Part shown: piece by piece, positions 3,193 through 53,093 of the stretch
Position numbering within the stretch: position 1 is the first letter of the stretch
Layout: every line of letters starts with the position of its first letter
DNA from: Acidobacteriota bacterium
GTDB taxonomy: Bacteria; Acidobacteriota; Blastocatellia; Pyrinomonadales; Pyrinomonadaceae
Length of the DNA stretch: 54,574 bases
Reading direction: 5' to 3'
Assembly: GCA_020199995.1 (NCBI GenBank)
Contig: JAIVJM010000202.1
Location: 1 to 54,574 of the forward strand
The notes under the pieces: generated by a model
The model's database searches: none
Told to the model about the DNA's origin: nothing
What the model saw: only the letters and a program-made list of their open reading frames with translations
Made by a program: the position numbers and the translations under genes

Positions 3193-3279
3193 AAGTGATG
3201 AGTGATAAGTGATGAGTGATGAGTAATACGTGATGAGAAAGTCTTTGTCTTCCCTCTTATCACTTATCACTCATCACTG
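3193..3279. repeat. Heptad-word palindrome, GTGATGA/GTGATAA type
   Basis: The left arm (about 3194-3237) is a run of the words GTGATGA and GTGATAA. The right arm (about 3255-3279) is their reverse complement. The loop contains TTTGTCTTCC. The TGA stop of the upstream minus-strand lipoprotein gene (3274-3276) lies inside the right arm, and purB starts directly at the other edge. Confidence 0.85.
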
Positions 3280-3786
3280 TTTTAGCGTGTCCGAGCTGAC
3301 CGAGTAGCCCGCGAGGAGCCAGCGCCCTCCGCGTTCGAGCATGGTGAATTTTTCCGTCGCCTCGCCGCGCTCGAAGCGCGTGCGGTAGACGAGTTCGAGC
3401 GAGTGGCCGGAGAGCGGCGCGGCGGCGCTCTGCTGCTCGCGCCCCGTGTGGAGCGCGCGGCTCTCGACGCGGCCCAGGCGCTCGCGCACGCGCCCGAGCA
3501 TCCGCGCGTTCTCGTCGGCGCTGACGGCGGCGCGCCACTCCTCCGCCGCATCCTCGTAGACCTTCGCGTCCCGGCCCGCGGCGATGTCCTCCGTCACGCT
3601 CTCGACTGCCGCCTGCGCCGCAGGCGCAATCCCGCGCCGCTCGTCTACGGCGCAACCCGCGAGGAAGACAAAAGTAAAAAGGCAAAAGGCAAGAAGAGAG
3701 GCTTGAGGCTTGAGGCTTGAAGCTAGCGAAGACAAAGTGCTCTGACCAGCCTCCAGTCTCCAGCCTCCAGCCTCTCTTCTTTTCAT
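3274..3786 (-). CDS. Putative lipoprotein, DUF4019/DUF3887-like
   Basis: A 170-residue protein with a lipoprotein signal: hydrophobic LLAFCLFTFVFLAGC, with the lipobox Cys near residue 46, followed by an Ala-rich linker. The C-terminal ~110 residues read as a small alpha+beta domain (VYEDAAEEWRAAVS, RERLGRVESR, LVYRTRFERG, MLERGGRWLLAGYSV). This resembles DUF4019 or the NTF2-like DUF3887 domain, so function is unknown. The ATG at 3784-3786 overlaps the stop of the upstream hydrolase gene as ATGA, so the two are probably translationally coupled. The odd point is that the first ~35 codons, before the hydrophobic segment, are translated from a palindromic element (3691-3783). A TTG at the LSSLASS position is the only other plausible start. 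Its stop is also inside an element. Confidence 0.65.
   Translation of the reverse strand: MKRREAGGWRLEAGQSTLSSLASSLKPQASLLAFCLFTFVFLAGCAVDERRGIAPAAQAAVESVTEDIAAGRDAKVYEDAAEEWRAAVSADENARMLGRVRERLGRVESRALHTGREQQSAAAPLSGHSLELVYRTRFERGEATEKFTMLERGGRWLLAGYSVSSDTLKQ
3691..3783. repeat. Heptad-word palindrome, GGCTTGA/GGCTGGA type, read as protein
   Basis: Left arm 3692-3724 (GGCTTGA repeated three times); right arm about 3748-3782 (AGCCTCC-type words). On the minus strand the loop contains CTTTGTCTTCG, like that of the 3193 copy. It lies wholly inside the reading frame of the lipoprotein gene, encoding its pre-signal N-terminus. Confidence 0.8.
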
Positions 3787-4613
3787 AGCTCGATCCACGG
3801 CGTCGGCTCTTTGGGATGCGAGAGCGTGATTTTGGCGGTGGACTGAAAGAGCATGCCGCGCTCTTGGAGGGCGACCTCGGCGGTCAGCTTGGCGACGTGC
3901 GGGTTGTTGGCGCGCTGCGAGAGGTGCGCGAGGACGACGTGCTCGGCGGAGCCGTCGAAGCCGTCGCGCAGCCACACGGCCACGTCCTCGTTCGAGAGGT
4001 GGCCGGTGCGCGAAAGTATCCGCTGCTTGAGCTCCCACGGGTAGACGTCGCACGCCTTGAGCATGTCGCGGCTGTGGTTCGACTCGATGACGACCGCCGC
4101 GCAGCCCTTGAGATGCTCGGCGACTAAGGTTGTGATGCAGCCGAAGTCCATCAGCGTGGCGACGCAGACGCCGTCGTGGCGCGCCGTAAAGCCGAAGTTG
4201 TCGGCGGCGTCGTGCGGGACGGTGAAGGGGTGAAAATCTATCTCGCCGATGCGGAAGTCCTGGCTCGAAGAAATCTCCTCGGTGCGGTCGCGCAAAACTT
4301 CGGCGCGCTTGCGCGGCTCGTCCGAGGCCGAGGAGCCGTGGACGCGCTCGCGGATGTAGGCGTCGCGCGTCGCGCCGGAGATGTAGACGGGGCACTCAAG
4401 GCTCTTCAAGAGGACGCGCAGGCCGCCCGCGTGGTCGCCGTGCTCGTGCGTGATGATAACGCCGTCAAGCCGCGTCACGTCTTCGCCGACGAGCGCCAGC
4501 CGCCGCGCCGTCTCCTTCGCGCTGAGCCCCGCGTCCACGAGCACGCGCGTCTGCCCCGCGCAAATCAGCACGGCGTTGCCCGTCGAACCACTGCCCAGAA
4601 CGGTTAGTCTCAT
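3783..4613 (-). CDS. MBL-fold metallo-hydrolase, YycJ/WalJ family
   Basis: A 276-residue metallo-beta-lactamase-fold hydrolase. The N-terminus MRLTVLGSGSTGNAVLI is typical of the YycJ (WalJ) family, members of which are linked to exonuclease or cell-wall/DNA-related roles in Firmicutes. The metal motif THEHGDH (residues 55-61) is intact. Further ligands are likely in TVPHDA, LMDFG, SNHS and LAHLSQ. There is no signal peptide, so it is expected to be cytoplasmic. Its stop overlaps the next gene's ATG by four bases. The palindrome at 4622-4716 lies just upstream. The substrate cannot be read from the sequence. Confidence 0.88.
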   Translation of the reverse strand: MRLTVLGSGSTGNAVLICAGQTRVLVDAGLSAKETARRLALVGEDVTRLDGVIITHEHGDHAGGLRVLLKSLECPVYISGATRDAYIRERVHGSSASDEPRKRAEVLRDRTEEISSSQDFRIGEIDFHPFTVPHDAADNFGFTARHDGVCVATLMDFGCITTLVAEHLKGCAAVVIESNHSRDMLKACDVYPWELKQRILSRTGHLSNEDVAVWLRDGFDGSAEHVVLAHLSQRANNPHVAKLTAEVALQERGMLFQSTAKITLSHPKEPTPWIEL

Positions 4614-4621
4614 CTCTCGCC

Positions 4622-4716
4622 TAAAAGCCGTAAATCGTGAATGGAAAGACGTTGTATCTTATCAACTCACAACTCGATTCATTCTGACGATTTATGATTC
4701 ACGATTCACGGCTTTT
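4622..4716. repeat. Heptad-word palindrome, GTAAATC/GTGAATC type
   Basis: Left arm about 4623-4645 (AAAAGCC, then GTAAATC and GTGAATG words); right arm about 4687-4716 (TTATGATTCACGATTCACGG, then CTTTT). The A-run on the left and T-run on the right make it terminator-like in both directions. It fills the whole gap between the MBL hydrolase and the upstream minus-strand gene. Confidence 0.82.
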
Positions 4717-5218: not shown

Positions 5219-5221
5219 TCC

Positions 5222-5290
5222 AGTTAATGACAGGCGACACGCCTACGTGTGAGAAGTAAGAACTGTTTTTCTCCCGTCACCCGTCACCGC
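5222..5290. repeat. Decayed heptad-word palindrome (half element)
   Basis: The right arm is clear (CCCGTCACCCGTCACCG followed by CTTTT) and the loop resembles the others (GTAAGAACTGTTTTTCTC). The left arm has degenerated; only GACAGGCGACACGCC remains. It sits between the M16 peptidase stop and the frameshifted gene's start. Confidence 0.5.
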
Positions 5291-15564: not shown

Positions 15565-16590
15565 ATGAACACGAGCAATCCTGTTCTCGACGCACGCGTG
15601 CGCACCGCCCTGCGCGCGGCTCTCTTCGTGCTGACCTGCGGCGCCGCGGCCTGTGCGTGTCTCGCGCCGGACGCGGCGCGCGCGGCGGGTGGCTCGTCCG
15701 CCGCGCGCGCCGTCGCTCAAGTAGACCGTCTGGACATCCGCCTCCGCTCTTTCTCGCCCGGTGCGACCGGTCACCTCACCATCGAGGCGAGCGAGGGCGG
15801 CGGCAGCCTTCGTCTGACCGTGCTCAATCTCCCCGACCCGCAGACGCTCGCGAGCGGCGCTCGCACCTACGTCGTGTGGGCGAGCGGCGACGGGCGCATC
15901 CTCCGCCTCGGCGAGCTGCGCCGCGACGAGCGCGGCAACGGCGGCCTCGCCTTCGAACGCCCCGCCACCTTCGAGCGCTATAGCGTGATTGTCACCGCCG
16001 AGATGAGCGCCGGCGCCGAGCGCCCCGGCGCGCCCGTGCTCTCGACGCGCGCCAACGAAGCCACGACCCTCTATCCGAGGCTGTCGAGGAAAGGTGCGTC
16101 TGCCGACGCCGCGCCGCCGCCGGTCGTCGCCCCGCCTCCCGCCGCTGCTCCGTCCGCCGCGAGAGGCACGCGCCGCGTGGCCGGGGATTTTTACGCCGAG
16201 GTCGAAGACGCGCTCGCGTCGAAGGGCGGCGGTCGCGTAATCGAATTTGAAGGTGAGCGTCTCGCGCCGCGCGCAGGCGGCGCGGCGCGCGTCACGGAGC
16301 ACACGGGCCGCGCCTACGTCCGCGCCAACTTCCGCGGCGTGCCCCTGCCCGTGTCGCCCGGCGCGACCACCTACGTCCTCTGGGCCGTCGTCCCCGACGG
16401 GCGCATCATCTACATGGGGAGCCTCCCCGCCACCGAAGACCTCAACCGCGCGGAGGTCTACGTCCGCGTCGCCGGCTTCGACGCCGACAACTTCAGCCTC
16501 TTCGTCACCGCCGAGCGCGCCCGCCCCGTCCACACCCCCTCCGGGAGCCGCGTGCTCACGCCGAAGAACGCCAAGCTCATCGTCAAGTGA
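15565..16590 (+). CDS. Exported protein with two RskA-C-like beta domains
   Basis: A 341-residue exported protein. The signal peptide is about residues 12-40 (ALRAALFVLTCGAAACACL, ending ARAAGG). Two related domains follow, at about 50-155 and 215-335. They share the pattern of a strand, LP..., TYVVWA/TYVLWA, GRIxxxG and a terminal FSLFVTAE/YSVIVTAE strand. The middle motif resembles the anti-sigma-K factor (RskA) C-terminal domain, but there is no zinc-finger or transmembrane part, so a sigma-factor role is not supported. The linker (~165-195) is Pro/Ala-rich. It lies just before the sigma-54 activator gene. Function unknown. Confidence 0.7.
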   Translation: MNTSNPVLDARVRTALRAALFVLTCGAAACACLAPDAARAAGGSSAARAVAQVDRLDIRLRSFSPGATGHLTIEASEGGGSLRLTVLNLPDPQTLASGARTYVVWASGDGRILRLGELRRDERGNGGLAFERPATFERYSVIVTAEMSAGAERPGAPVLSTRANEATTLYPRLSRKGASADAAPPPVVAPPPAAAPSAARGTRRVAGDFYAEVEDALASKGGGRVIEFEGERLAPRAGGAARVTEHTGRAYVRANFRGVPLPVSPGATTYVLWAVVPDGRIIYMGSLPATEDLNRAEVYVRVAGFDADNFSLFVTAERARPVHTPSGSRVLTPKNAKLIVK

Positions 16591-38674: not shown

Positions 38675-41600
38675 TCAGCCGACCGAGCGCACGGTGACGC
38701 GTTGGCCTAAGACTTCGCCCTCCCAGAGCGTGCGCGCCTTTGACTCGTGGCGGAGGTGCTTCCAGAGCGCGCCGCGCTCGTACTCGTCGAGGTCTGAGGG
38801 GATGAGGTCGAAGACGGCGCGCGAGGCGATGACGACGAGCTTGCGGCGGGGCCGCGAGACGGCGACGGTAAGGCGGCGCGGCTCCAAAAGGAAGCCGCTC
38901 TCGCCCTCGGCGAACTCGCGGTCGGAGACGGTCGCGGAGACGACGATGAGGTCGCGCTCGCCGCCCTGAAAACGCTCGACCGTGTCCACGCAGCCGGCCA
39001 GTTCGGGGAGGCGCGCGGCCAGCAGAGCCTTCTGCGCGCGGTGCGGGACGACGATGCCGACGCCCTTTCGCGCGTCGAGGTTCAAAGCTTCCGCCGCCTT
39101 GCGGACGAGCGCCTCGACGAGCGCGGCCTCGAACTCATTCGACTGCTGCGAGCCCGACTCGTCGTGCTCGACGACGACGAGCGCGTGCTCGGGGGCGAGC
39201 GCCGCGCGCAGCCAGCCGTCGGCAATCTCGCCGCAGTCCGCGAGGCGTGTCCGGTTCGTCGAATGAAAGTTGATGCCGTCCTTCGCGTAGACGTGCCGGC
39301 GGAGGAAGTCGGCTATCTCCTCGGGGATGCGGAACGACTCGTCGAGCGCGGCGCGCGCGAAGCCCAGCTCCTGTAAATACTCGAAGACGGAGAGGAAGAC
39401 GCGCGCGCGCTTGAGGTCGCGGCGCGCTTCGGCGTCCCACGCGTGCGCGAGGATGGGCGGCATCTGGCGGTGGTCGCCGACCGCGATAAACTGCCCGTCC
39501 TCGCGCAGAAACGCGGCGGCGGTCAAAGCCTCGGCCAAGCCCATCTGCGAAGCCTCGTCAACGACCACGAGGTCGAAGTGCTCGCCCGTCCAGTCTACCT
39601 TTCGCCCCTTTGAAGCGCCCAGCTTGACCAGACGGTAGAGCCCGCCCGGCGTCCCGCCGACGACGAGCAGCGGCTCGGAGAGCAGCATCTCCCACTGCTC
39701 CGCGGCCCTCAAATCTTCACCGCCATCAGGCAGCACGCGCTCGACACCTTCGGGCACCGCCTCGCCCGCGTCGTTGCACACCTTCGCGAGCTTCAAACGC
39801 GCGAGCGGCGCAAGAAGCGGCGGAAGCCCGACCGAACTAAACGCAGAAGTCAGAACGCGGAACGATGAACTTGAAGACGAAGACTTTTGCCTTTCGTTCA
39901 TCGTTCCGCGTTCTGACTTCTGACTTCTCTCCGCGCCCTCCCTCACGGTCGGGCTTGCGCATAGCTCGCTCAGACGCTTCGCCACCGATTCGAGCGCGAC
40001 GTTGACGGCGGCGTGCGTCTTGGCGAGCACCGCAACGCGAAAGGGGCGCGCGGGCGTGGCCTGTGCCGCGGCGCGTGAGAGGATGGCGAGCCCGAGCGTA
40101 TGGCTCTTGCCCGTGCCGGGCGGCCCCTGCACGACGAGCACGCGCTCCGTCAAGCGCCCGCCGACGATCTCCATCTGCGCCGCCGTCAGCCCGTGCGGCT
40201 GCTGCGACTGTGCCGCGAGGCGTGCGAACTCCTGCGCGTCGCGCTGTCGCTTCGGGCGCACGGCGCGCTGACGCTTTCCTTCTTCCGTGTCGCTCAGCCA
40301 GCGGTAGAGGTGATTCGAGTCGGCGTGGCGGCAGGCTTCGAGAAACTTGTCCGAGTTGAGGTCGTCGGCCATCTCGTCAACGGTGTAGAGCACGCCGGCG
40401 TCGGGCACGAAGAGCATGTGCGGATAGCGGAACGGGGAATTTTTGAAACTCATCGGCAGCAGGCGCAAATGCGCGCCCTCCGCTGTCAGCTCCTCGACGA
40501 GCGCGAGCCGCCCGCGGACGAGCCGCGACGCGGGGAGCGCGCGGCCTTCGGCGTCGGCGAGCGGGTTCAGGACCACCCAGTCGCCTGCGCGCAGGCGCAG
40601 CAGGCCCAGCTCCGTGACGTTCACCTCGCGCCCCTCCGCGTCGGCAAAGCGGAACCACGCGCGCTCGATTTTCTCTTCGTCCTTCTCATAACGCTCGCAG
40701 CGCAGCAGGGCGGTGCGCCCCGTCTCGGCGCGCTCGCGCGGACGGAGCCCCAGATGAAGGAGCCGCTCCTGAAACGCCGCGTGGTGTTCGAGGAGGAGGA
40801 AGTCTTCGAGCGAGCGGCGGAGCGGAACCTCCTCGGGCTCGACGCTCACGCGGTCGAGGCGCGAAAGGTCGAGCGGCTCTTTGAAGACACGTCGGTTCTT
40901 GTAGGCGAACGATTCTTCGACGTGCTGCATGGCGCGCGTCCGGCGCGCGGCGAAGGCACGAATCTGATGCGCGTCGACGCCGAGGAAGCCGCGCAGCTGC
41001 GCGCGCGCTTTCTCTTTCGAGCCGTCGGGTTCGCGCAAAAGCCCCCACGCGGCGTAGGCGTATTCGAGCGGAATTTCAGCGCCGAAGCGCGCCGCCGATT
41101 CGATTCGCACGAAGGGCGCGGGCACGTCTTCGCCCCCCTCTGCTTCATTCTTCTTCGCCCCGCCGCTCTCGAAGAGGCCCGTCTCAGCGTCGCGCCGGAA
41201 GGTGCGGCGGTTGTCGAAGACGCGCGCGCGAAAAGTCCGGCGGAAGTCCGTCTCGGCGTCCGACCACTCGAAGCCTAACTCGCGCGCGACCTCGTAGAGG
41301 TTCTGGCAGACGGGCGCGAGATTGAGACGCGAGCGCACCTCTTCGGCGAGCAGCGAGACCATCGGCTGCGAGAGCGCGGGGTGCGAGGTCAGAAGGTCGT
41401 AGAAGGCCGGGATGGCGCACAGCGCGTCGAAGTGGCGCGCGAGCGCATCGAGCAGAGCGCGCTCGCCGCGCGGCGCATAGGTGTAGACGTGGAGCGGCGC
41501 GTGTGTCGAGCCCGCGGCGCGCGCGATGGCGGGCAGAAGGTTCTGCACCCAGCGGACGAGCAGCGCGCGCTCACCCTCTTCGTCGGGCGGCGCGCCGGTC

Positions 41601-42790
41601 ATCTCGACGACTTCCGCCGCGCCCCCCGGCCCCTCGACACGCGCGGCGACGAGGTAGAGCTTGTCCTTGAGGTAATCGCGCTGCGCGTCAACGAAGACGC
41701 GCACGAGGTCGGGGTACTGCGCCGGGTCGGGCAGCGAGCCATAGTCGGAGCCGACGAAATAACGCCGCGCCTCGACGGTGCGGTCGAAACGTTTGAGGGC
41801 CGCGCGCGCGCGTTGCACCAGCACGGGCAGGCGGCTCGCGAGCGGCCAGCGAGCCGACGCGCGCCGCACAGCGCCCTCGCGCCCCGCCGCCGCGACCATC
41901 GCGCCGCCCGTCCCGTATTCCAGAAGCCCGGCCAGCTCACGCGCCGAAGCTACGCCGGCGGTGTCGAGAGCGCGCTTCTCCGCCGCCGCGAGATGCGGGA
42001 CGAGCGAGAGGTCTTCGCGCTCCGCCGTGTCCGCGAAGCAGAGCGCGTTGTACGGGCAGCCGTCGCACGCCGCGCGCAGGTGGTAGAGCGCGCGCCCCTC
42101 GCCCGCCGCAGCCGCCCGCGCCACGTCCGAGTCGGGCGCGGAGACTAAACGCTCGATCTCGTCCTCGTAGAGCGCGAGGTCGAAAGTCTCCCAACCGCCC
42201 TCTTCCGTGAGCACGCTGTCGCGCGCCGCGACCGCGCCGCCGAGCGCGTGCGCGCTCAAAGACGCCTCTCTCAAAGTCTCGCGGAGCAGCCGCACGTAGA
42301 AGGCGACCTGAAGGCGGTAGCCCACGGTCTCGCGCGCGCTCGCCTTGAAGTCTACGACCGTCGCCGAGACGCCGCCGCCGTCGCGCTCGCGCACGACTTC
42401 GACGAGGTCAGCGCGGCCCTCGCAGGCCCAGCCACCGATGCGCCCCCTCATGCTCGGCTGGTAATAGAACGCGCGTCCCTCGGGCTGCGCGCGCAGGGCG
42501 GCGATGAAGACCTCGGGCGTCGCGTTGCTCAGGTCGTTGACGGGCGCGCGCGCGCGCAGCTCTTCGACACGCGCGCGCTCAAACGCCTGACCTTCGCCCG
42601 AGAGCAGCGGCGACAGAGGCTCGACCTCCAGCCCATAGCGGGTGAGTAAGCTTTGCGCCTCCGAAGGGAAGACGGCGAAGCGCAGATGTCGCTCGCAGCG
42701 CCCGCGCGCGACATACTGCGCCAGTCTCTGCGCCGTGAGCGCGCGCTCAGTGCTGAAGGGCTCGGGCGTTTCTGGAGTGCGTTGAGACAT
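38675..42790 (-). CDS. Dna2-like Fe-S nuclease / superfamily 1 helicase fusion
   Basis: A 1,371-residue DNA repair-type protein. The N-terminal RecB-family nuclease has Asp128 (GRADLV), DFK (147-149), Gln161-x3-Tyr165, and the four Cys of an AddB/Cas4-type Fe-S cluster (Cys32, then C242-x2-C245-x5-C251). The middle part (~260-830) is unassigned. The C-terminal SF1 helicase of the UPF1/Dna2 type has Walker A GPPGTGKSHT (~886), DEAS (~1076), VGDHRQMPPI, LDESFRIPEEI, TVERFQGGERDLIVVS and LTVAVSRPRRKLVV. Between motifs I and II, residues ~955-983 are translated from a palindromic element (39842-39928, exactly 29 codons). It should process DNA ends or flaps; this is family inference. A zinc-ribbon protein gene is 58 bases upstream on the same strand. 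Confidence 0.9.
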   Translation of the reverse strand: MSQRTPETPEPFSTERALTAQRLAQYVARGRCERHLRFAVFPSEAQSLLTRYGLEVEPLSPLLSGEGQAFERARVEELRARAPVNDLSNATPEVFIAALRAQPEGRAFYYQPSMRGRIGGWACEGRADLVEVVRERDGGGVSATVVDFKASARETVGYRLQVAFYVRLLRETLREASLSAHALGGAVAARDSVLTEEGGWETFDLALYEDEIERLVSAPDSDVARAAAAGEGRALYHLRAACDGCPYNALCFADTAEREDLSLVPHLAAAEKRALDTAGVASARELAGLLEYGTGGAMVAAAGREGAVRRASARWPLASRLPVLVQRARAALKRFDRTVEARRYFVGSDYGSLPDPAQYPDLVRVFVDAQRDYLKDKLYLVAARVEGPGGAAEVVEMTGAPPDEEGERALLVRWVQNLLPAIARAAGSTHAPLHVYTYAPRGERALLDALARHFDALCAIPAFYDLLTSHPALSQPMVSLLAEEVRSRLNLAPVCQNLYEVARELGFEWSDAETDFRRTFRARVFDNRRTFRRDAETGLFESGGAKKNEAEGGEDVPAPFVRIESAARFGAEIPLEYAYAAWGLLREPDGSKEKARAQLRGFLGVDAHQIRAFAARRTRAMQHVEESFAYKNRRVFKEPLDLSRLDRVSVEPEEVPLRRSLEDFLLLEHHAAFQERLLHLGLRPRERAETGRTALLRCERYEKDEEKIERAWFRFADAEGREVNVTELGLLRLRAGDWVVLNPLADAEGRALPASRLVRGRLALVEELTAEGAHLRLLPMSFKNSPFRYPHMLFVPDAGVLYTVDEMADDLNSDKFLEACRHADSNHLYRWLSDTEEGKRQRAVRPKRQRDAQEFARLAAQSQQPHGLTAAQMEIVGGRLTERVLVVQGPPGTGKSHTLGLAILSRAAAQATPARPFRVAVLAKTHAAVNVALESVAKRLSELCASPTVREGAERSQKSERGTMNERQKSSSSSSSFRVLTSAFSSVGLPPLLAPLARLKLAKVCNDAGEAVPEGVERVLPDGGEDLRAAEQWEMLLSEPLLVVGGTPGGLYRLVKLGASKGRKVDWTGEHFDLVVVDEASQMGLAEALTAAAFLREDGQFIAVGDHRQMPPILAHAWDAEARRDLKRARVFLSVFEYLQELGFARAALDESFRIPEEIADFLRRHVYAKDGINFHSTNRTRLADCGEIADGWLRAALAPEHALVVVEHDESGSQQSNEFEAALVEALVRKAAEALNLDARKGVGIVVPHRAQKALLAARLPELAGCVDTVERFQGGERDLIVVSATVSDREFAEGESGFLLEPRRLTVAVSRPRRKLVVIASRAVFDLIPSDLDEYERGALWKHLRHESKARTLWEGEVLGQRVTVRSVG
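39842..39928. repeat. Heptad-word palindrome inside the helicase reading frame
   Basis: Left arm 39842-39871, right arm 39891-39928; on the coding strand the words are AGAAGTC, AGAAGTC, AGAACGC, GGAACGA, TGAACG. The loop on that strand has AAGTCTTCGTCTTC, close to the 3193 copy. It is 87 bases long, so the frame is kept. Here the arms have no stop in the coding frame, unlike most copies. The product segment is Ser-rich (QKSSSSSSSFRV). Confidence 0.85.
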
Positions 42791-43562: not shown

Positions 43563-43657
43563 GAGGAAGAAATGCGGAATGCGGAATGATGAATGCTGAG
43601 TAGAAGGCAAGTTGTCTTTCATTCATCATTCATCATTCCGCATTCATCATTTCTTCC
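43563..43657. repeat. Heptad-word palindrome, GAATGCG/GAATGAT type
   Basis: Left arm 43565-43600 (GAAATGCGGAATGCGG, AATGATGAATGCTGAG); right arm about 43617-43657 (CATTCATCATTCATCATT, CCGCATTCATCATTTC). The loop has GTTGTCTTTC (43611-43620). The TGA of the pterin dehydratase gene (43647-43649) is inside the right arm. Confidence 0.88.
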
Positions 43658-43985
43658 TCTCGTCCATCTCGTCGAGCTTTGCGGCGAGGATGAAGTCGCT
43701 TTCGCTGAGGCCGTCAATCGCGTGCGTCCAGATTTGCACCCGCGCATAGCCCCAGCCGAAGGTGATGTCCGGGTGATGGCCTTCGCGTTCGGCGACGCGG
43801 CCCGCGCGGTTGACGAATTCCAGCGCCCCGGCGAAGTTCGAGAATGTGTAACCCTTCGAGAGGTGATGATCCTCGACGACCTTCCAGCCGCTCAGCTCCT
43901 TCATGTATTGATCCGTCTCCGCCCCCTCGAGGCGCGGCACGCCGCCGTGACAGGGCACGCAGCGGCGTTCGGCGAGCTTTTCCAT
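43647..43985 (-). CDS. phhB: 4a-hydroxytetrahydrobiopterin dehydratase
   Basis: A 112-residue pterin-4-alpha-carbinolamine dehydratase. It recycles the carbinolamine made by aromatic amino acid hydroxylases, and in some bacteria is linked to molybdopterin metabolism. The signature is complete: KELSGWKVVEDHHLSKGYTF, AREGHHPDITFGWGYARVQI (the EGHHPD motif), TH, and GLSESDF at the end. An extra CxxC-like pair (CVPCHGG) near the N-terminus is a common feature of bacterial members. The stop is in a palindromic element. No hydroxylase gene is in the window. Confidence 0.95.
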   Translation of the reverse strand: MEKLAERRCVPCHGGVPRLEGAETDQYMKELSGWKVVEDHHLSKGYTFSNFAGALEFVNRAGRVAEREGHHPDITFGWGYARVQIWTHAIDGLSESDFILAAKLDEMDERKK

Positions 43986-44139: not shown

Positions 44140-44967
44140 ATGAAAGGCGAACGCAGGAACAAAAGGGAAGTGCCCGCGTGGCTGAGCGGCGCGCTCACGG
44201 TGGGCGCGCTCGGGGCGCTCGTCTGGCTTGAGCGCCGCCGCCCGCTCAGGCGCGAGACCGAGTCGAAGTCCGCGCGCGACGCGCGTAACCTCGCCGTGGC
44301 GGGCTTGAGCGCGGCGGCCATCGCCGTGACGGAAAAGCCGCTGGTCGAACGTCTCACCGCACTGGTCGCGCGGCGGCGCTGGGGACTCTTAAAGCGCGCG
44401 CGGCTGCCCGTCTGGCTGGAGGTCTTGCTCGCCGTCGCGCTCTTGGATTACACGCTCTACGTGTGGCATGTGCTGACGCACCGCGCGCCGTGGCTGTGGC
44501 GCTTTCACAGGGTGCATCACGCCGACCTCGACCTCAGCGCGACGACCGCGCTGCGCTTCCACTTCGCGGAGTTGGTCGCATCAGTCCCGTGGCGCGCGGC
44601 GCAAATCCTTACCATCGGCGTCTCGCCGCTCTCGTTCTCCGTGTGGCAGACCGCGCTCTTTCTCTCGATCCTGTTTCACCACTCGAACGTCCGTCTCCCC
44701 GCCGGGCTCGAACGACGTCTCAACCGGCTCGTCGTCACGCCGCACATGCACGGCATCCACCATTCGACGGCGCGTGAGGAGAGAGACTCGAACTGGTCGA
44801 GCGGGCTTACGCTCTGGGACCGGCTGCATGGCACGCTCCGCCTCGACGTGCCGCAGGACGAGATCACCATCGGCGTCCCCGAATACCGCGAGCCCGCGGA
44901 AGTCGGGCTGGTGAGAATCCTGAAGATGCCCTTCGCGGAAGAGACGAGAGAGAGGCTTGAGGCTTGA
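44140..44967 (+). CDS. Sterol desaturase / fatty acid hydroxylase family membrane protein
   Basis: A 275-residue integral-membrane di-iron oxygenase of the fatty acid hydroxylase superfamily. The histidine boxes are present: HVLTH (HxxxH), HRVHH (HxxHH), HHSN, and HMHGIHH (HxxHH). Three to four hydrophobic segments are seen at about 12-30, 48-60, 90-112 and 160-185. The start was set at the ATG at 44140; the TTG five codons earlier is possible, and GGGGCAGG precedes both. The C-terminus (ERLEA) and TGA stop lie on the left arm of a palindromic element. The substrate may be a lipid or carotenoid; it is not readable. Confidence 0.88.
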   Translation: MKGERRNKREVPAWLSGALTVGALGALVWLERRRPLRRETESKSARDARNLAVAGLSAAAIAVTEKPLVERLTALVARRRWGLLKRARLPVWLEVLLAVALLDYTLYVWHVLTHRAPWLWRFHRVHHADLDLSATTALRFHFAELVASVPWRAAQILTIGVSPLSFSVWQTALFLSILFHHSNVRLPAGLERRLNRLVVTPHMHGIHHSTAREERDSNWSSGLTLWDRLHGTLRLDVPQDEITIGVPEYREPAEVGLVRILKMPFAEETRERLEA

Positions 44968-45006
44968 GACCGGCACTTCACAAGTCCCAAGCCCCCAGCC
45001 TCCAGA
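44948..45006. repeat. Heptad-word palindrome, GGCTTGA type, shortened
   Basis: Left arm 44948-44968 (GAGAGAGGCTTGAGGCTTGA); right arm about 44984-45006 (CCCAAGCCCCCAGCCTCC). The TGA stop of the hydroxylase gene (44965-44967) is a word TGA. The arms match imperfectly. The following ~230 bases before the next gene show no feature. Confidence 0.72.
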
Positions 45007-46075: not shown

Positions 46076-46768
46076 ATGAGGCCGCATCTCTCCGTCATCA
46101 TCCCCGCCCTCAACGAGGCGCGCTCAATCGGCGCGACGCTCGACGCGCTGGCGCTCGCGGGCGAGTCCGTCGAGGTCGTCGTGGTTGACGGCGGAAGCAC
46201 GGACGGGACGGGCGACGTCGCGCGCGGGCGCGGCGCGCTGGTCGTCAAAGCGGAGCGCGGGCGCGGGGCGCAGATGCACGCTGGGGCGTTGGCGGCGCGG
46301 GGCGACGCCTTCTGGTTCCTGCACGCGGACACGCTCGCGCCCGCGGATGCCGCCGAAAGAATCGCCGCCGCGCTCAGAGACCCGCGCGTGGTCGGCGGCA
46401 ATTTTCGCGTCCGCTTCGACGGCATGCGACGCGCGGCTCGGTTCCTGACGTGGCTCTACCCGCAGTTGCGCCGTCTCGGCCTGTGCTACGGCGACTCGGC
46501 GATCTTCGTCAGGCGCGATGCCTACGAAAGCGCGGGCGGCTTCAAGCCCTACCCCATCTTCGAGGATTTGGACTTGCTGCGCGCGCTCTGGCGCTTGGGC
46601 CGCGTCGTCCACCTCGACTCGACGGTCGTCACCTCGTCGCGCCGCTTTGAGGGGCGCAGCTTCGCGCTCGCCTTCGCGCGTTGGGCGGCTCTCCAAACCC
46701 TCTACTGGCTCGGCGTCCACCCGCGCACGCTCGGGCGTCTCTACTACCCGGCGAAAAAGAAGCAGTGA
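46076..46768 (+). CDS. Family 2 glycosyltransferase, TIGR04283-like
   Basis: A 230-residue GT-A glycosyltransferase. The nucleotide-sugar site is clear: LSVIIPALNEARSIGATL, VVVDGGSTDGT, FWFLHADTLAP (the DxD-like Asp), and acceptor-side GYGDSAIFVRRDAYESAGGF, with catalytic FEDLDL. Together with the convergent gene at 46806 (TIGR04282-like), the AhpD-like gene and the radical SAM/Cys-rich gene it matches the set found with arsenosugar biosynthesis. It carries no membrane segment. Its TGA (46766-46768) and the stop of the convergent gene both lie in the palindrome between them. Confidence 0.9.
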   Translation: MRPHLSVIIPALNEARSIGATLDALALAGESVEVVVVDGGSTDGTGDVARGRGALVVKAERGRGAQMHAGALAARGDAFWFLHADTLAPADAAERIAAALRDPRVVGGNFRVRFDGMRRAARFLTWLYPQLRRLGLCYGDSAIFVRRDAYESAGGFKPYPIFEDLDLLRALWRLGRVVHLDSTVVTSSRRFEGRSFALAFARWAALQTLYWLGVHPRTLGRLYYPAKKKQ

Positions 46769-46818
46769 GCAGTCAGTGCGGTTATCCGTCTGAGCTGCTT
46801 ACTGCTTACTGCCCGCTG
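46761..46818. repeat. Heptad-word palindrome, CAGTGAG/CAGTAAG type, between convergent genes
   Basis: Left arm 46761-46780 (AGCAGTGAGCAGTCAGTGC); right arm about 46794-46818 (GCTGCTTACTGCTTACTG, CCCGCTGTC). The TGA of the plus-strand gene is in the left arm. The TAA of the minus-strand gene (46806-46808) is in the right arm. Confidence 0.84.
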
Positions 46819-47514: not shown

Positions 47515-47597
47515 ATGCGGAATGCGGATTGCGGATTGCGGGTCGAAGACACTAACATAATGCAAAATCCGCAACCCGAAATCCGCGTTCCGCAATG
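47515..47597. repeat. Heptad-word palindrome, GAATGCG/GATTGCG type
   Basis: Left arm 47515-47543 (AATGCGGAATGCGG, ATTGCGGATTGCGGG); right arm about 47572-47597 (TGCAAAATCCGCAACCC, GAAATCCGCGTTCCGC). The loop on the minus strand has GTTAGTGTCTTCG. It separates the divergent DUF2064 and AhpD-like genes. Confidence 0.82.
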
Positions 47598-47951: not shown

Positions 47952-48875
47952 TGGCAACACAACTGCCCGTCATCCACCCTGCGGCGGCGGCGGATGCCCC
48001 CTTGCGCTCGCCCGCGGGCTTCGAGCAAACGCTCGCCGAGCGCGGCCTTGAGCTGCGCCGCGCCGCGTCGGTCGAGACCTTGCAGGTTAACGTCGGCAAG
48101 CTCTGCAATCAGGCGTGCAGGCACTGCCATGTGGACGCCTCACCCCGCCGCACCGAGATTATGACGCGCGAGACGGCTGAAGAGGTCGTCGGGGCGATCG
48201 GGCGGTTCCGCTTCGCCACGTTGGACGTGACGGGCGGCGCGCCCGAGCTGAACCCGCATTTCAGATACCTCGTGACCGGGGCGCGCTCGCTCGGCGCGCA
48301 CGTCATCGTGCGCCACAACCTGACCGTTATGTTCGAGCCGGGGCAGGAAGACCTCCCCGACTTCTTCCGCGCGCACGAGGTCGAAGTCGTCTCTTCGCTC
48401 CCTTACTTTCTCGAACAGCAGACCGACGCGCAGCGCGGCCACGGCGTCTTCGAGAAGTCGGTCGAGGCGCTCCGGCGACTGAACGCGGTCGGCTACGGCG
48501 TCGAGGCGAGCGGCCTCGAACTGAACCTCGTCTACAACCCGGTGGGCGCGTACCTGCCGCCGCCGAATCAATCGAGGCCGACTTCAAACGCGAACTCCTG
48601 AAGTCGTCGAGTCGTTCAACCCGCGCGCGGTCGAGGGGCTGATGTGCCGCCACACGCTCAGCGTGGACTGGACGGGCCGCCTCTCCGATTGCGACTTCAA
48701 CCAGATGCTCGACCTCGGCGTCGCCGCCGGACTCCCCCGGCATATCCGCGACTTCGACCCCGTGCGCTTCGCCGCCGGCCCCATCCAGACCGGCGCGCAC
48801 TGCTTCGGCTGCACCGCGGGCGCGGGCTCCTCGTGCGGCGGCTCGGTCGTCTCAAGAGTAAGCAGTGAGCAGTGA
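47951..48875 (+). pseudogene. Radical SAM/Cys-rich protein, ArsS type, frame-disrupted
   Basis: A radical SAM enzyme of the TIGR04167-like (radical SAM/Cys-rich) family, tied to arsenosugar biosynthesis as ArsS. The Fe-S motif CNQACRHC (CxxxCxxC, Cys52/56/59) and TGGAPELNP are intact in the first ~205 residues, up to AYLPPP. Near 48559-48572 the frame shifts (IEADFKREL in the next frame), and near 48598-48606 it shifts again to FNPRAVEGLMCRHTLS. The C-terminal Cys-rich domain (SVDWTGRLSDCDFNQML, HCFGCTAGAGSSCGG) is then intact to the TGA at 48875. A stretch of a few tens of codons appears to be missing at the second break. It is broken as given; an assembly deletion is a strong alternative. 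The gene symbol is withheld because of damage. Confidence 0.82.
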
Positions 48876-48962
48876 GCAGTAAGCAGTCAAGGCGGCTGAC
48901 AGGTCTTGACTGCTTACTGCTCACTGCTTACTGCTTACTGCTTACTGCTCACTGCTCACTGT
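48853..48962. repeat. Heptad-word palindrome, CAGTGAG/CAGTAAG type, longest arms
   Basis: Left arm 48855-48890 (AAGCAGTGAGCAGTGAGC, AGTAAGCAGTC); right arm about 48904-48962 (CTTGACTGCTTACTGC, TCACTGCTTACTGC, TTACTGCTTACTGC and so on), with more words on the right than the left. The TGA of the radical SAM gene (48873-48875) is a word TGA. The remaining ~120 bases before the next gene show no feature beyond its SD. Confidence 0.88.
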
Positions 48963-49086: not shown

Positions 49087-50352
49087 GTGGCCGCCATACA
49101 TCCTTTTCGCGCCCTGCGTCCGCCCGCCGACAAGGTCGGGGAAGTCGCCGCCGTGCCCTACGACGTGGTCAATACCGAAGAGGCGCGCGCGCTCGCGGAG
49201 GGTAAGCCATCCAGCTTCCTCCACGTCTCGCGCCCGGAGATTGACCTGCCCGCGGGCACAGACCTCTACTCGGACGAAGTGTACGCCCGGGCCGCCGAGA
49301 ATTTTCTGCAGCTCATCCGCGACTGCCCTCTCGAAATCGAGGCCGAGCCGGGTCTCTATCTCTACCGCCTCGTGATGGGCGGGCATGAGCAGACGGGGGT
49401 CGCGGCCTGCGTCTCGGTTGACGAGTACGACCGCGGCCTCATCCGCAAGCACGAGAAGACACGCCCCGACAAAGAGAACGACCGCACGCGCCACGTCCTC
49501 GAACTGCGCGCGCAGACCGGCCCGGTCTTCCTCACCTACCGCCCCGACCGGCGCATCGACGCGCTCGTCGCGGGCGCGTCCGCGTCCTCCGAGCCGCTCT
49601 ACGACTTCACGGCAGACGACGGCGTCCGCCACACGGTCTGGCGCGTCGCCGTGCCCGAACAGCTCGCGCGCTGCTTCGAGGAAGTCCCTTTGCTCTACAT
49701 CGCCGACGGCCACCACCGCGCGGCGAGCGCCAGCCGCGCGCGCGCCGCCCTGCGCGAACAGAATGAGAATCACACCGGCGACGAAGAGTACAACCGCTTC
49801 CTCGCCGTCATCTTCCCCGCCGACCAGATGCAGATACTTCCCTACAACCGCGTGGTCAAGGATTTGAACGGCCTCTCTCCCGAAGACTTTCTCGACGCCG
49901 TCCGCGGGCGCTTCGACGTGACCACGGACGCCAACCCGCGCGGCCCCGGCAAGAGCGGGCACTGGCACATGTATCTGGGCGGCAGATGGTACGGCCTCAC
50001 GCTGAAGAAAGCCGGGGGAGACAACGGCGGCACGAGAAACAACGGCGGCTCCGGCGACGACGACCCGGTCGCCTCGCTCGACGTGAGCGTCCTGCAGGAC
50101 AACCTGCTCGAACCCCTGCTCGGCATCAGGGACGTGCGGACGGACAAGCGCATTGACTTCGTCGGCGGCATCCGGGGCACGGAAGAGCTCGTCCGGCACG
50201 TTGACTCCGGCGCGGCGGCGGTCGCCTTCGCGCTCCACCGGACTTCGATTGATGACCTCTTGCGCGTCTCGGACGCCGAAGGCATTATGCCGCCGAAGTC
50301 CACATGGTTCGAGCCCAAGCTGCGCGACGGCATTCTGATTCACACGATTTAA
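49087..50352 (+). CDS. DUF1015 protein, putative serine kinase (SerK/SbnI-like)
   Basis: A 421-residue DUF1015 family protein. Conserved parts: AAIHPFRALRPPADKVGEVA, AVPYDVVNTEEA, IRKHEKTRPDKENDRTRH, PVFLTYRP, LYIADGHHRAASA and LPYNRVVKDLNGL. Members include free L-serine kinases (archaeal SerK, staphylococcal SbnI), which use a ParB/HipA-type fold; the ADGHHR block is the likely active site. It has a Gly/Asn-rich insert (about 315-330). It starts with a GTG after AAGGAGG. The neighbours serA-like (51048) and serC (53103) support a link to phosphoserine metabolism. Kinase activity is an inference. Confidence 0.88.
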   Translation: MAAIHPFRALRPPADKVGEVAAVPYDVVNTEEARALAEGKPSSFLHVSRPEIDLPAGTDLYSDEVYARAAENFLQLIRDCPLEIEAEPGLYLYRLVMGGHEQTGVAACVSVDEYDRGLIRKHEKTRPDKENDRTRHVLELRAQTGPVFLTYRPDRRIDALVAGASASSEPLYDFTADDGVRHTVWRVAVPEQLARCFEEVPLLYIADGHHRAASASRARAALREQNENHTGDEEYNRFLAVIFPADQMQILPYNRVVKDLNGLSPEDFLDAVRGRFDVTTDANPRGPGKSGHWHMYLGGRWYGLTLKKAGGDNGGTRNNGGSGDDDPVASLDVSVLQDNLLEPLLGIRDVRTDKRIDFVGGIRGTEELVRHVDSGAAAVAFALHRTSIDDLLRVSDAEGIMPPKSTWFEPKLRDGILIHTI

Positions 50353-50475
50353 GAGCGATGAGCTGTCGGCTTTTAGCTTTTAGCTTTTTCTCTTTCGCAA
50401 GCTAAGCCTCGGCCCGGATGTTGGCCGTTCCGGCACGGATAAAGCTGACGGCTAACAGCTAATCGCTAACAGCTT
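50353..50475. repeat. Two heptad-word runs: GCTTTTA and GCTAACA/GCTAATC
   Basis: Left run about 50366-50390 (GGCTTTTAGCTTTTAGC, TTTTTC), right run about 50444-50475 (GCTGACGGCTAACAGC, TAATCGCTAACAGC). Both step by seven bases; they pair partly as GCTTTTAGC against GCTAACAGC. The right run ends directly at the next gene's ATG. It is a diverged member, and the middle (GGCCCGGATGTTGGCC) is a small extra inverted repeat. Confidence 0.65.
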
Positions 50476-51018
50476 ATGGAAATCGAGACCGAACGGCTGC
50501 GGCTGCGCGCGTTCACGTCGAAAGACGCGGACGAGCATTACCGCATCATCAGCGACACTGAGTTCAGGCGGCACTTCCCCGCGCAGTTCTTCCAGCCGAC
50601 GCGCGACAACGTGCTGGTCGGCATCGGGCGCGTCATCGAGCATCACTATCAGCGCGGCTTCGGCTACTGGGCGATGGACTTGAAGGAGGAGGCGCGGATG
50701 GTCGGCTACTGCGGGCTCCGCTTCCTCGCGCCGACACAGGAGGTCGAGCTGCTCTACGGCATCGAGCGCGCGCACTGGAGCCGGGGGCTCACGACCGAGG
50801 CGGCGCGCGCCTCCTTGCGTTTCGGCTTCGACGAGATGAAGTTCGAGCGCATCATGGCCGTCACCGACCCCGCGAACCTCGGCTCGCGCCGCGTCATGGA
50901 GAAGTGCGGGATGAAATACGAAAGGGACGCCGTCTACTTCGAAACCCCTTGCGTCTATTACGCCCTTAACCGCGACGACTATCGCGCGGACGGCGGCACT
51001 TATGTCCTGCATCCTTGA
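50476..51018 (+). CDS. GNAT acetyltransferase, RimJ/RimL type
   Basis: A 180-residue N-acetyltransferase of the GNAT fold (Acetyltransf_3 branch). Signature: ETERLRLRAFTSKDADEHY at the start, GYCGLRF, ELLYGIERAHWSRGLTTEAA (acetyl-CoA loop), and the final NLGSRRVMEKCGMKYERD. The substrate may be a ribosomal-protein N-terminus or a small molecule; there is nothing in the sequence to decide. The ATG follows a palindromic element directly, so no separate SD is seen. It lies between the DUF1015 and serA-like genes on the same strand. Confidence 0.92.
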   Translation: MEIETERLRLRAFTSKDADEHYRIISDTEFRRHFPAQFFQPTRDNVLVGIGRVIEHHYQRGFGYWAMDLKEEARMVGYCGLRFLAPTQEVELLYGIERAHWSRGLTTEAARASLRFGFDEMKFERIMAVTDPANLGSRRVMEKCGMKYERDAVYFETPCVYYALNRDDYRADGGTYVLHP

Positions 51019-51047: not shown

Positions 51048-52259
51048 ATGCGTGTGCTCATCGCAGATAAATTTGAACAGACGGGCCGCGACGGCCTCGA
51101 AGCCGCCGGGTGCGATTACTCGTACCAGCCGGACGTGAAGGACGAAAGCTTAGTCGAGGCCGTCCGCTCTTACCGGCCCGACGCGCTCGTCGTGCGCGGG
51201 ACGAAGGTGACGGAGGCGTTGATGGACGCGGGCGCTCTCAAGCTCGTCGTGCGCGCCGGGGCCGGCTACAACACGATTGACGTGGCGGCGGCCTCGCGCC
51301 GAGGCATCTACGTCTCGAACTGCCCCGGTAAGAACTCCGTCGCCGTCGCGGAACTCGCACTGGCGCTCATGCTCGCGCTCGACCGCCGCATCCCCGATAA
51401 CGTCGCGGCGCTGCGCGAAGGCAAGTGGAACAAGAAGGAGTTCTCGAAGGCGCGCGGCCTCTACGGGCGCACGCTGGGGCTGGTCGGCACGGGCCAGATC
51501 GGACGTGAGGTCATCCAGCGAGCGAGCGCCTTCGGCATGCACGTCGTCGCGTGGAGCCGCAGCCTCTCGGACGAGCGCGCCGCCGAGCTTGGCGTCGAGC
51601 GCAAAAGTAGCCCGGAGGACGCGGCGCGTGCCTCGGATATCGTCAGCGTCCACGTCGCCTTGAACGCCGAGACGCGCGGCTTCCTCGGCGACTCGTTCTT
51701 CGCGGCGATGCGCGAGGGCGCGTACTTCATCAACACGGCGCGCGGCGAAGTGGTTGACCAGACGGCCCTCGTCAAAGCGATGCGCGAGCGCGGAATCCGC
51801 GCCGGGCTCGACGTCTACGCACAGGAACCGACTTCGGGAACGGGCGAGTTCGCGGACGAGATCGCGCGCGAGCCGAACCTCTACGGCACGCACCACGTCG
51901 GCGCTTCGACCGATCAGGCGCAGGAGGCCATCGCCGCCGAGACCGTCCGCATCATCCGCACCTTCAAGGAGACGGGCAAAGTCCCGAACGTCGTCAACCT
52001 CGCGGTGCGCACGCCCGCGACGCACGCGCTCGTCGTCCGCCACCGCGACCGCCCCGGCGTCCTCGCCGCCGTGCTCGACCACATCCGCGCCGCTCAGATC
52101 AACGTGCAGGAGATGGAGAACATTATTTTTGAAGGCTCCGAGGCGGCGGTCGCCCGCATCAACCTCGAAGCCGCGCCCAGCACGGAGACGCTCGAACGCC
52201 TCAAGGCCGAGAATGCTGACATCATCGAGTTGAGCCTTTTGGAGATCCAAAGGCCGTGA
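51048..52259 (+). CDS. serA: D-3-phosphoglycerate dehydrogenase-like protein with ACT domain
   Basis: A 403-residue enzyme expected to oxidise 3-phosphoglycerate, the first step of serine synthesis. Parts: an N-terminal substrate domain, Rossmann motif LVGTGQIGREV (about 144-154), catalytic Arg in NTARGEVVD, Glu in DVYAQEP and His in GTHHVGASTD. A C-terminal ACT domain (HALVVRHRDRPGVLAAVLDH, INVQEMEN) may bind serine as feedback inhibitor. The ATG at 51048 was chosen; a TTG three codons earlier is possible; GAGAGG lies upstream. The final TGA is in a palindromic element. serC is two genes downstream. Some family members act on other 2-hydroxyacids, but the ACT domain and serC support serA. 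Confidence 0.9.
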   Translation: MRVLIADKFEQTGRDGLEAAGCDYSYQPDVKDESLVEAVRSYRPDALVVRGTKVTEALMDAGALKLVVRAGAGYNTIDVAAASRRGIYVSNCPGKNSVAVAELALALMLALDRRIPDNVAALREGKWNKKEFSKARGLYGRTLGLVGTGQIGREVIQRASAFGMHVVAWSRSLSDERAAELGVERKSSPEDAARASDIVSVHVALNAETRGFLGDSFFAAMREGAYFINTARGEVVDQTALVKAMRERGIRAGLDVYAQEPTSGTGEFADEIAREPNLYGTHHVGASTDQAQEAIAAETVRIIRTFKETGKVPNVVNLAVRTPATHALVVRHRDRPGVLAAVLDHIRAAQINVQEMENIIFEGSEAAVARINLEAAPSTETLERLKAENADIIELSLLEIQRP

Positions 52260-52334
52260 ATCGTCAAATCGGGAATCGTAAATAGAAAGAAACCGTTTTA
52301 ATCTCATCACGATTCACGATTCACGGTTTTCTTA
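52250..52334. repeat. Heptad-word palindrome, GTGAATC/GTAAATA type
   Basis: Left arm 52250-52283 (AAAGGCC, GTGAATC, GTCAAATC, GGGAATC, GTAAAT); right arm about 52308-52332 (ACGATTCACGATTCACGG, TTTT). It starts at the serA-like gene's TGA (52257-52259), which is the TGA of the first word. The loop has AGAAAGAAACCGTTTT. Confidence 0.85.
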
Positions 52335-52339
52335 TTCTT

Positions 52340-53028
52340 ATGACGACAGCACTCATCACAGGCGCTTCGGGCGGCATCGGCGAAGTCTTCGCGCGCAAGC
52401 TGGCGGCGCGGGGCGAGAACGTCGTGCTGGTGGCGCGCTCGACTGAGAGGCTCGCGGCGATTTGCGAGGAGCTGCGGGCGGCGCACAAGATTGACGCGCA
52501 GTTCGTGGCGATGGATTTGATTGAGCGCGATGCGCCCGCGCGGTTGTTTGCGGAGACTGAGCGGCGGCACTCGTCGAGCTGACGCACCGCTACCTGCACG
52601 GGATGCGCGGGCGGCGCGCGGGCTCGATCATCAACGTCGCCTCGACGGCCTCTTTTCAGCCCGTGCCGTTCATGGCGACCTACGCGGCGACGAAGGCGTT
52701 CGCGCTCTCCTTCTCAGAGGCGCTGTGGGAGGAGAACCGCGCGTGGGGCATCCGCGTGATGGCGCTCTGCCCCGGCTCGACCGAGACCAACTTTTTCAAA
52801 GTCGCGGGTGTCGACACCCCGCCATCGAACATCTCGCAGACGCCCGAAGCGGTGGTCGAGACGGCGCTCGCGGCGCTCGCGCGCGGCAAGGGCCACGTCA
52901 TCTCGGGCTGGGGCAACTTCCTTATGGCCGAGGCCGGGCGCTTCGTCCCGCGCGCGCTCGTCACGCGCATCGCCGGAATGATCTTACGCAAGCGGTACAA
53001 GCCAACTGAGGTAAATGGTAAATCGTAA
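52340..53028 (+). pseudogene. Short-chain dehydrogenase/reductase with internal deletion
   Basis: An SDR-family oxidoreductase. The N-terminal cofactor site is intact: [19 protein letters not shown] (TGxxxGxG) and [11 protein letters not shown]. Near 52566-52572 the frame breaks after FAETERR. It resumes in another frame as [13 protein letters not shown], then GSIINVASTASFQPVPFM (catalytic Ser) and ATYAATKAFALSFSEAL (YxxxK), to the TAA at 53028. The missing stretch should contain the NNAG strand. The encoded protein would lack a substrate-pocket part, so it is inactive as given; an assembly deletion is the main alternative. The C-terminus (VNGKS) and stop are from a palindromic element. Confidence 0.85.
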
Positions 53029-53093
53029 ATGGTGAATGGAGGAACCGCTTCCTGTCTTTCACCATTTACCATTCACCATTTACCATTCACCAG
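53010..53093. repeat. Heptad-word palindrome, GGTAAAT/GGTGAAT type
   Basis: Left arm 53010-53040 (GGTAAATGGTAAATCG, TAAATGGTGAATGG); right arm about 53060-53092 (CACCATTTACCATTCACC, ATTTACCATTCACC). The loop has CCTGTCTTTC (53051-53060). The SDR gene's TAA (53026-53028) is a word TAA; the serC SD (AGGAG) follows the right arm. Confidence 0.9.

Follow-up and report, generated by a model that had tools for sequence, protein, structure and literature searches.

Arrays of seven-base words are known from several bacterial lineages, and some of them are arranged as inverted pairs. In Xanthomonas (GGGAATC) and Nostoc (GGGGA(C/T)T) heptamer arrays are intergenic, mostly lie between the same genes and vary in length and sequence; in Xanthomonas some form close inverted pairs (70 in Xcc, 75 in Xac) (PMC4692102). 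The P6b stem-loop of the Nostoc trnL intron consists of complementary heptamer arms, with Class I (TDNGATT) or Class II (NNTGAGT) words; different words build the same structure, and one class has repeatedly given way to the other (PMC4476775). Geobacter metallireducens carries multicopy sequences of class 3 (five tandem MTYCTGA) and class 1 (octamers) as opposite-strand pairs (PMC2700814). The TAACTGA repeats of Beggiatoaceae, cyanobacteria and Bacteroidetes are intergenic heptamer arrays located mostly near start codons (PMC4679880), and a survey of prokaryote satellites includes heptamer-derived families such as GATAGRA in Chloroflexus (PMC6749651). Heptamers did not turn up in a term search of passages from a survey on DNA-structure features (PMC4060949). 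Here we analyse the window, a stretch of 54,574 nucleotides with 65% G+C from a member of the Pyrinomonadaceae (Acidobacteriota), which is contig JAIVJM010000202.1 of assembly GCA_020199995.1 (C94 below). A sequence-only reading had picked out about 22 palindromes whose arms are runs of a heptanucleotide word that differs from copy to copy, and knew of no description of such a family; heptamer hairpins are in fact partly described in three of the above reports (PMC4692102, PMC4476775, PMC2700814). We find that these hairpins lie mostly beside stop codons across the host genome and that, at orthologous gaps, the presence of a hairpin is better conserved than its word.

The heptamer hairpins are real and far above chance. 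Each listed place was examined for a lag-7 run (score of at least 9 within 125 nucleotides, rival lags 4 to 12) and for RNA folding relative to 40 dinucleotide shuffles (cut-off z < -3). Twenty of the 22 places have the run and 17 of the 22 fold below the cut-off, whereas those at 36113 and 36899 fail; lag 7 tops all lags from 4 to 12 at 20 of the 22, so that the seven-base stepping noted in the sequence-only reading stands. Outside the listed places, 9 of 1953 overlapping scanning windows reach a lag-7 score of 9. A strict detector, which takes ungapped hairpins and then scores the lag of their arms (threshold 9 for heptamer arms), returns 19 inverted repeats in the window, of which 12 reach that threshold at lag 7; five shuffles of the window give 1-4 inverted repeats each and no lag-7 ones. 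The host genome is a metagenome-assembled genome (MAG) of 5.3 Mb in 352 contigs, 88% complete and with 64% G+C; it is G000 in our code, in which G0xx denotes a genome, L a fetched locus, and g10 and g30 two other genera. Among named relatives, the isocitrate dehydrogenase of the window is closest to that of an Acidobacteria gp4 MAG (86%), with a Pyrinomonadaceae MAG next (75%), which places the host in the Acidobacteriota. In 651,990 bases of G000, 86 of 239 inverted repeats have lag 7, compared with 1 at lag 6 and 3 at lag 8, a clear enrichment over the neighbouring periods. Three more fall at lag 3, two at lag 12 and one at lag 9, the range across the non-7 lags from 3 to 13 being 0-3 each. 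One shuffle of the first 353 kb yields 9 inverted repeats, none of them lag-7; in the same 353 kb lag 14 acts as a harmonic of 7, reaching 40 of 121 where lag 7 reaches 48. Tandem arrays tell the same story, with 68 at period 7, 3-21 at the other periods from 3 to 13, and 42 at the harmonic 14. The surveyed contigs are not a random draw, several having been picked from matches of a preceding element search, and the element density of G000 therefore cannot be taken as unbiased; that choice is not the sole basis of the contrast between periods.

Could the elements be peculiar to this window by accident, or an artefact of metagenome assembly? The host assembly is a MAG in hundreds of contigs, but elements also occur in homologous gaps of several independent assemblies, none arises in shuffles, and 15 of the 28 other genomes of the class (Blastocatellia) carry at least one (39 elements in total from samples of 7-79 kb each, with 13 genomes having none in their sample). 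Such an accident is vanishingly improbable. A lack of elements in relatives, or no excess of period 7 over 6 and 8, would have refuted the sequence-only reading; neither is seen. In a bacteria-wide set of 80 loci around icd, 3 carry an element (Pyrinomonadaceae, Tepidiforma and a Sphingobacteriales MAG). Two side observations belong here. Period-8 arms make up a minority of inverted repeats (5 of 44 in G066, 5 of 122 in the G009 loci, and also L029) and recall the octamer class of Geobacter. The G000 bin has a contamination value of 5.44 and two isocitrate dehydrogenase genes that are 83% identical (C94 36989-38443 and C334 30561-32009); the bin may contain a second organism.

The initial proposal that the shared trait is the pattern and not the letters holds for the architecture, which combines a seven-nucleotide step, complementary arms and a short apex; elements of the same class, however, share sequence. 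Nor are the words all unrelated between types, as had been thought. The 35 distinct words among the 86 elements of G000 form roughly ten classes, several joined by one-letter steps, and same-class elements are dispersed relatives. In our grouping the classes are GTGATRA; CGTNAAT; GCAGTRA; AATGATG/AATGCGG/AACGATG; AGTCYGG and GGCTKGA; AGCTNTT; AAAAGGY; and AGTTTTC. The 5'-arm words of G000 elements have a polarity: they are purine-rich (64%) and C-poor (12%), and no reverse-complement pairs occur among them. Elements are mostly 60-120 bp in size, with medians of 27.5 bp for the stem, 24 nucleotides for the loop and -47 kcal/mol for the predicted energy, and a mean G+C of 44% against 64% for the genome. 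Some stems are mosaics of several words mirrored across both arms (39844 and 43563 in the window). Two candidate features were rejected. AAGACA as a universal apex is a habit of one genome, being present in 22 of the 86 G000 apices (2.9 expected) but in 2 of 39 elements elsewhere. As 7 leaves a remainder of 1 when divided by 3, arrays could give a stop in every frame. In G000, 58 of the 86 5'-arm words contain a stop codon, against a mean of 46.8 and a maximum of 57 in 500 letter shuffles; in other genomes 20 of 39 do, with no excess over the 22.8 for shuffled letters. As a general rule, a three-frame stop signal finds no support.

The elements of the window are as follows; strand is unassigned for every one of them, and the signs in brackets are those of genes.

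3194 to 3278: heptamer hairpin, GTGATRA, between a purB-like gene 1885-3270(-), whose called start falls within the hairpin, and a DUF4019 gene 3274-3786(-); 19 other related places in G000
3691 to 3781: heptamer hairpin, GGCTTGA/GGCTGGA
4623 to 4716: heptamer hairpin, CGTRAAT, upstream of the metallo-hydrolase gene 3783-4613(-); first site compared across 30 genomes; at the listed place 4622 the array is present, with fold z -2.6 and a strict-detector lag-7 score just under 9
5222 to 5290: weak degenerate heptamer element, lag-7 score 9, fold z 0.0 (no better than shuffles)
16638 to 16705: heptamer hairpin, GACGAGT, between 15565-16590(+) and a response regulator 16720-18126(+)
21329 to 21407: heptamer hairpin, CGTRAAT, overlapping the called stop of 20390-21349(+)
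21847 to 21903: heptamer hairpin, GATGAAT
25388 to 25461: heptamer hairpin, CGTNAAT, overlapping the called stop of 24967-25398(+), 9 bp before the ATG at 25471
26162 to 26234: imperfect heptamer hairpin, GGCTGGA, at the stop of 25471-26163(+); lag-7 score 9, z -4.5
29648 to 29709: heptamer hairpin, GAGGCTR, at the stop of 28242-29657(+)
36257 to 36341: heptamer hairpin, CGTNAAT
39844 to 39922: mosaic heptamer hairpin, AGAAGTC/AACGCGG/AACGATG mirrored across the arms, with a 27 bp stem and zero mismatches; exceptional in place, inside a called 1371-aa helicase/nuclease-like gene 38675-42790(-) whose frame is open throughout
43563 to 43659: mosaic heptamer hairpin, GCGGAAT/GATGAAT; at least 36 related places in G009
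44948 to 45005: imperfect heptamer element, GGCTTGA, lag-7 score 10, z -2.3
46761 to 46818: heptamer hairpin, GCAGTRA
47517 to 47586: heptamer hairpin, GCGGAAT/GCGGATT
48857 to 48961: heptamer hairpin, GCAGTRA, the longest array in the window
50353 to 50474: heptamer hairpin, GCTTTTA / GCTAACA, between 49087-50352(+) and 50476-51018(+)
52250 to 52330: imperfect heptamer hairpin, CGTNAAT, at the stop of 51048-52259(+)
53010 to 53092: heptamer hairpin, GGTRAAT, 10 bp before the ATG of a serC-like gene 53103-54191(+); second site compared across 30 genomes

The places at 36113 (lag-7 score 7, fold z +0.5) and 36899 (score 3, z -1.1) are not retained as heptamer elements, and an Rfam scan of the window at the gathering score gave 0 matches.

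Comparison of orthologous loci reveals that hairpin occupancy is better conserved than the choice of word. In the gap upstream of the metallo-hydrolase gene, an inverted repeat that scores at least 8 at lag 7 is present in 13 of the 30 genomes compared, and we read eight words at that site (CGTGAAT, CGTRAAC, CAGCGCT, AACGATG, GTGACGA, AAGGTTC, AGTCTGG and AAGTTTC); element-free gaps with the same upstream gene end measure only 4-15 bp (G005, G003 and G077). On the metallo-hydrolase protein tree, sisters differ in word (G011/G047; G030 versus G051 and G062) and also in presence (G036/G054, G010/G038). A heptamer hairpin stands upstream of serC in 6 of 30 genomes, and downstream of the metallo-hydrolase gene in 7 of 30, with an array only in four more. 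The orthologous gap of the 3194 element holds GTGATGA in G045, other words in G002, G011, G030 and G062 and a weak one in G003, and is empty in G059; the orthologues of the 16638 and 50353 elements carry GTGATGA (G009) and AGTGGTC (G002), respectively. Over 287 pairwise orthologue comparisons, a heptamer hairpin is present at the orthologue in 136 and none in 151. In a test on the tandem gaps of eight genomes, with one detector for test and control, congeners share occupancy in 64 of 93 comparisons if the first genome is filled and in 27 of 194 if it is empty; across genera the figures are 43 of 74 and 33 of 119. These comparisons are counted in both directions and so are not independent, which overstates their significance. 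Word distance was taken as the least distance between any two units of paired elements. Among 40 congeneric hairpin pairs, this distance is 0 or 1 in 17, where random partners would give 19%, and 3 or more in 14, where they would give 62%; among 25 cross-genus pairs the counts are 7 and 11 (13% and 62% expected). Words thus persist by descent for a time and are then lost, faster than the hairpin is.

The clearest junction comes from three congeners with flanks 89-95% identical, where the element of G066 reads GGGTGCT, that of G045 reads GATGAAT but holds one intermediate GCTGAGT unit, and that of G059 reads GTGATGA. Their apices are similar (TTAAAGCAGCTTGTCTTTA, TTAAAGACAGTTCTTAA and AGAAGACAACTTCTTCC, respectively). 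The series looks like unit-by-unit drift through both arms, but the test on apices (below) is only marginal. Clean empty sites exist as well, with 16 bases in G045 against 98 in G059 at one and 8 in G059 against 105 in G045 at another; the orthologous segment of the 39844 element is shorter in G059 and G013 (23 nucleotides against 145 in the G059 comparison). At L297 14715 (G045) an AAAAGGC hairpin is found, and its counterpart L296 (G066) has CACAGAGACACAGAGG-like stretches. In other genera, unrelated non-heptamer hairpins such as TGTCCGACAAACTTCAGTTTGTCG and TTTGGAGTGCGCCGGCAGAGCG occupy identical gaps (L244 in G039; L273, L274 and L278 in G079, G063 and G069; L265, L270 and L271 in G008, G086 and G058).

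Where do the elements sit? With genes called by a purpose-made dicodon caller, 72 of the 86 G000 elements fall in tandem gaps, flanked by co-directional genes, 4 in convergent and 7 in divergent gaps; 2 are inside genes and 1 is at an edge. In tandem pairs the median element starts 1 bp from the upstream stop codon and ends 21.5 bp before the next start. Counted by hand, 64 of the 72 tandem elements begin within 25 bp of the stop; 32 of the 72 overlap the upstream gene end and 24 include its complete called stop codon. The two other genera, g10 and g30, show 88 tandem, 19 convergent and 11 divergent elements, 1 inside a gene and 5 at edges, with 80 of the 88 tandem ones beginning within 25 bp of the stop. 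Elements per gap of at least 60 bp in G000 and in g10 plus g30 amount to 28% and 28% for tandem, 10% and 31% for convergent, and 14% and 13% for divergent gaps. In the gap before serC, the stop codon of the preceding gene seems to come from the element itself (G059 L267, G066 L262, G045 L261); in the empty G045 that gene ends in its own TAA, and in filled congeners it ends in TGA or TAG at or in the array. Siting behind stop codons would suit intrinsic transcription terminators with incidentally repetitive stems, and some arms do read AAAAGCC...GGCTTTT. A four-T run, however, is near only 39 of 172 stem ends, compared with 46 of 280 for other inverted repeats, and many elements stand 3-30 bp before the next co-directional start codon, which leaves no room for a promoter and argues against terminators. 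We consider this explanation very unlikely.

The word GTGATRA illustrates a further alternative, namely that the elements are selfish or neutral products of slippage, functionless heptamer microsatellites favoured by the polymerase and tolerated between genes only. Four copies of this word occur in 12 of 297 Acidobacteriota genomes, and a backward control pattern matches 5; the phylum-wide frequency is that of this single word. Of eight GTGATRA loci fetched, the detector finds a hairpin only in that of G000, and in all seven loci from relatives the word forms an array but no detected hairpin, as slippage would have it. Patchy occupancy fits neutral slippage, and bacterial heptamer over-representation has been tied to polymerase slippage (PMC4692102). 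Nonetheless, 112 strong lag-7 arrays of G000 fall within or next to an inverted repeat, laxly defined; of the 14 others, 5 are N runs, which leaves only 9, and slippage alone neither creates nor maintains complementary arms. An origin of this kind is improbable.

We weigh two further accounts. The one we lean towards, tentatively and at somewhat below even confidence, is that the architecture is inherited longest, that the word turns over by slippage and templated copying, and that the hairpins are tolerated or useful in mRNA. The inherited format would consist of tandem heptamers in the 5' arm, a short apex, and a 3' arm complementary to the first. Units of the array may change by single letters or be replaced while the arms remain matched, probably through seven-nucleotide slippage steps and hairpin-templated copying between the arms, and whole elements may occasionally spread into new gaps. 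In the transcript the hairpin would stand directly behind the stop codon and ahead of the next ribosome-binding site, where it could be tolerated or useful intercistronically; a role in RNA is suggested by this place and by the predicted stability, mostly without a T run. A bolder version, in which the identity of an element is its format (seven-nucleotide step, mirrored arms and post-stop place) and the letters are rewritten jointly in both arms, possibly by a dedicated seven-nucleotide slippage-and-fold-back copying, we regard as unlikely.

A serious rival, which we rate as possible though rather doubtful, is that related elements rapidly re-insert into one and the same small gap. Here there would be many families like REP or miniature inverted-repeat transposable elements (MITEs), one per word and mobilized by a transposase in trans, and post-stop gaps would be permissive targets that independently gain different families and lose them again, with no change of words in place. 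REP/REPIN elements, which are associated with RAYT (Y1) transposases, are short, dispersed extragenic palindromes, often gene-adjacent, defined by a conserved sequence with a tetranucleotide tag and lacking period 7. The dispersed same-word relatives in G009 and G000 fit such families, as do the clean empty sites in congeners (also a MITE trait), the non-heptamer hairpins that fill the same gaps in other genera, and the scatter of presence and absence on the metallo-hydrolase gene tree. Separate families, however, leave the common period-7 arms and the purine-leaning 5' arm unexplained, and junctions match exactly in some congeners despite different words. Several REP/REPIN traits are also absent: with 35 words in 86 elements the sequence is not conserved, no constant tag is seen in the element list, and flanking by Y1 was not found. 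Among transposases Y1 only was examined, and at five loci of three G000 Y1 genes no heptamer hairpin adjoins, the nearest being 6 kb off (L218). A search for reverse transcriptase (PF00078) in the 88%-complete G000 gave no match. A REP-like hairpin with GGGGCGAAAGA is found no more than a few kb from two Y1 genes (L200 3208-3271 and L218 3121-3196), and the GGGGCGAAAGA hairpins are possibly a conventional REP family of G000.

Several results weigh against inheritance of the architecture with turnover of the word in place. The word-level expansion or templated copying suggested by the sequence-only reading gains from the order of units, which matches between arms at variable phases in 2210 of 2389 positions (92.5%; 224 of 251 elements from all loci have such a phase); permuting the units of one arm, with the best register chosen, gives 74% identity on average and 75.9% at most. 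The 92.5% is inflated, however, because stems were selected for complementarity. As to rewriting in place versus re-insertion, apex similarity is marginal in congeners (P 0.028 for 13 pairs at word distance of at least 2; 0.064 for 9 pairs at 3 or more), an earlier P of 0.0033 from 14 doubly counted comparisons having fallen to 0.028 after deduplication and the addition of loci; across genera P is 0.12 (9 pairs), and same-word pairs are not above the null. Gap-length differences between same-word orthologues are multiples of 7 in 7 of 39 cases, about as chance predicts. Convergent gaps of g10 and g30 are as occupied as tandem ones (19 per 61 against 88 per 313), so that what the sites have in common is a nearby stop codon, and a role confined to operons is too narrow. 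Three elements, finally, lie inside called genes, two in G000 (probably including that at 39844) and one in g10/g30.

What do these elements add to the known systems? The Xanthomonas pairs resemble them in a purine-rich 5'-arm word, as we deduce from the wording "convergent pairs"; that study describes one word type per lineage in a G-quadruplex framing, whereas here 35 words occur in 86 elements, mostly hairpins, and orthologous gaps differ in word (PMC4692102). The Nostoc P6b loop is closer in that complementary heptamer arms keep their structure while the word differs between relatives, and both P6b kinds of word are present in our set (GATGAGT in G000, TTAGATT in G014). P6b is nevertheless one group I intron locus with two words (PMC4476775), and the present elements are dispersed genome-wide, beside stop codons between protein genes. 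Geobacter shares several families per genome and paired short arrays, one of them between proBA with a different repeat in the sister species, but its class 3 comprises eight pairs, interpreted as possible IHF/HU-type sites, and other classes have period 8 or 5 (PMC2700814). The TAACTGA repeats are likewise intergenic heptamers whose word contains stop codons; they differ in being a single word, in 169 direct sets and one indirect, without predicted RNA structure (PMC4679880). As with the simple and short tandemly repeated heptamers of these papers, period 7 is enriched; one or few words per genome, as reported there, is not what we find. In the mainly open literature, judged by titles and the openings of abstracts, we recognised no account of heptamer hairpins with many words, nor one of such elements in Acidobacteriota. 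Repeat finders that rely on sequence would overlook such an element or scatter it over many families that look unrelated. The scattered reports from Xanthomonas, Nostoc, Geobacter and Beggiatoa do not explain the seven-base unit or the differences between words. The present bacterial family combines dozens of words per genome with known junctions and with congeners that carry a hairpin of another word in the same gap; given these congeners, the choice of seven, the matching of arms and the relevance to RNA can be tested by strain comparison. Relative to the known heptamer repeats, the many words per genome, the siting at stop codons and the fast turnover of the word are new.

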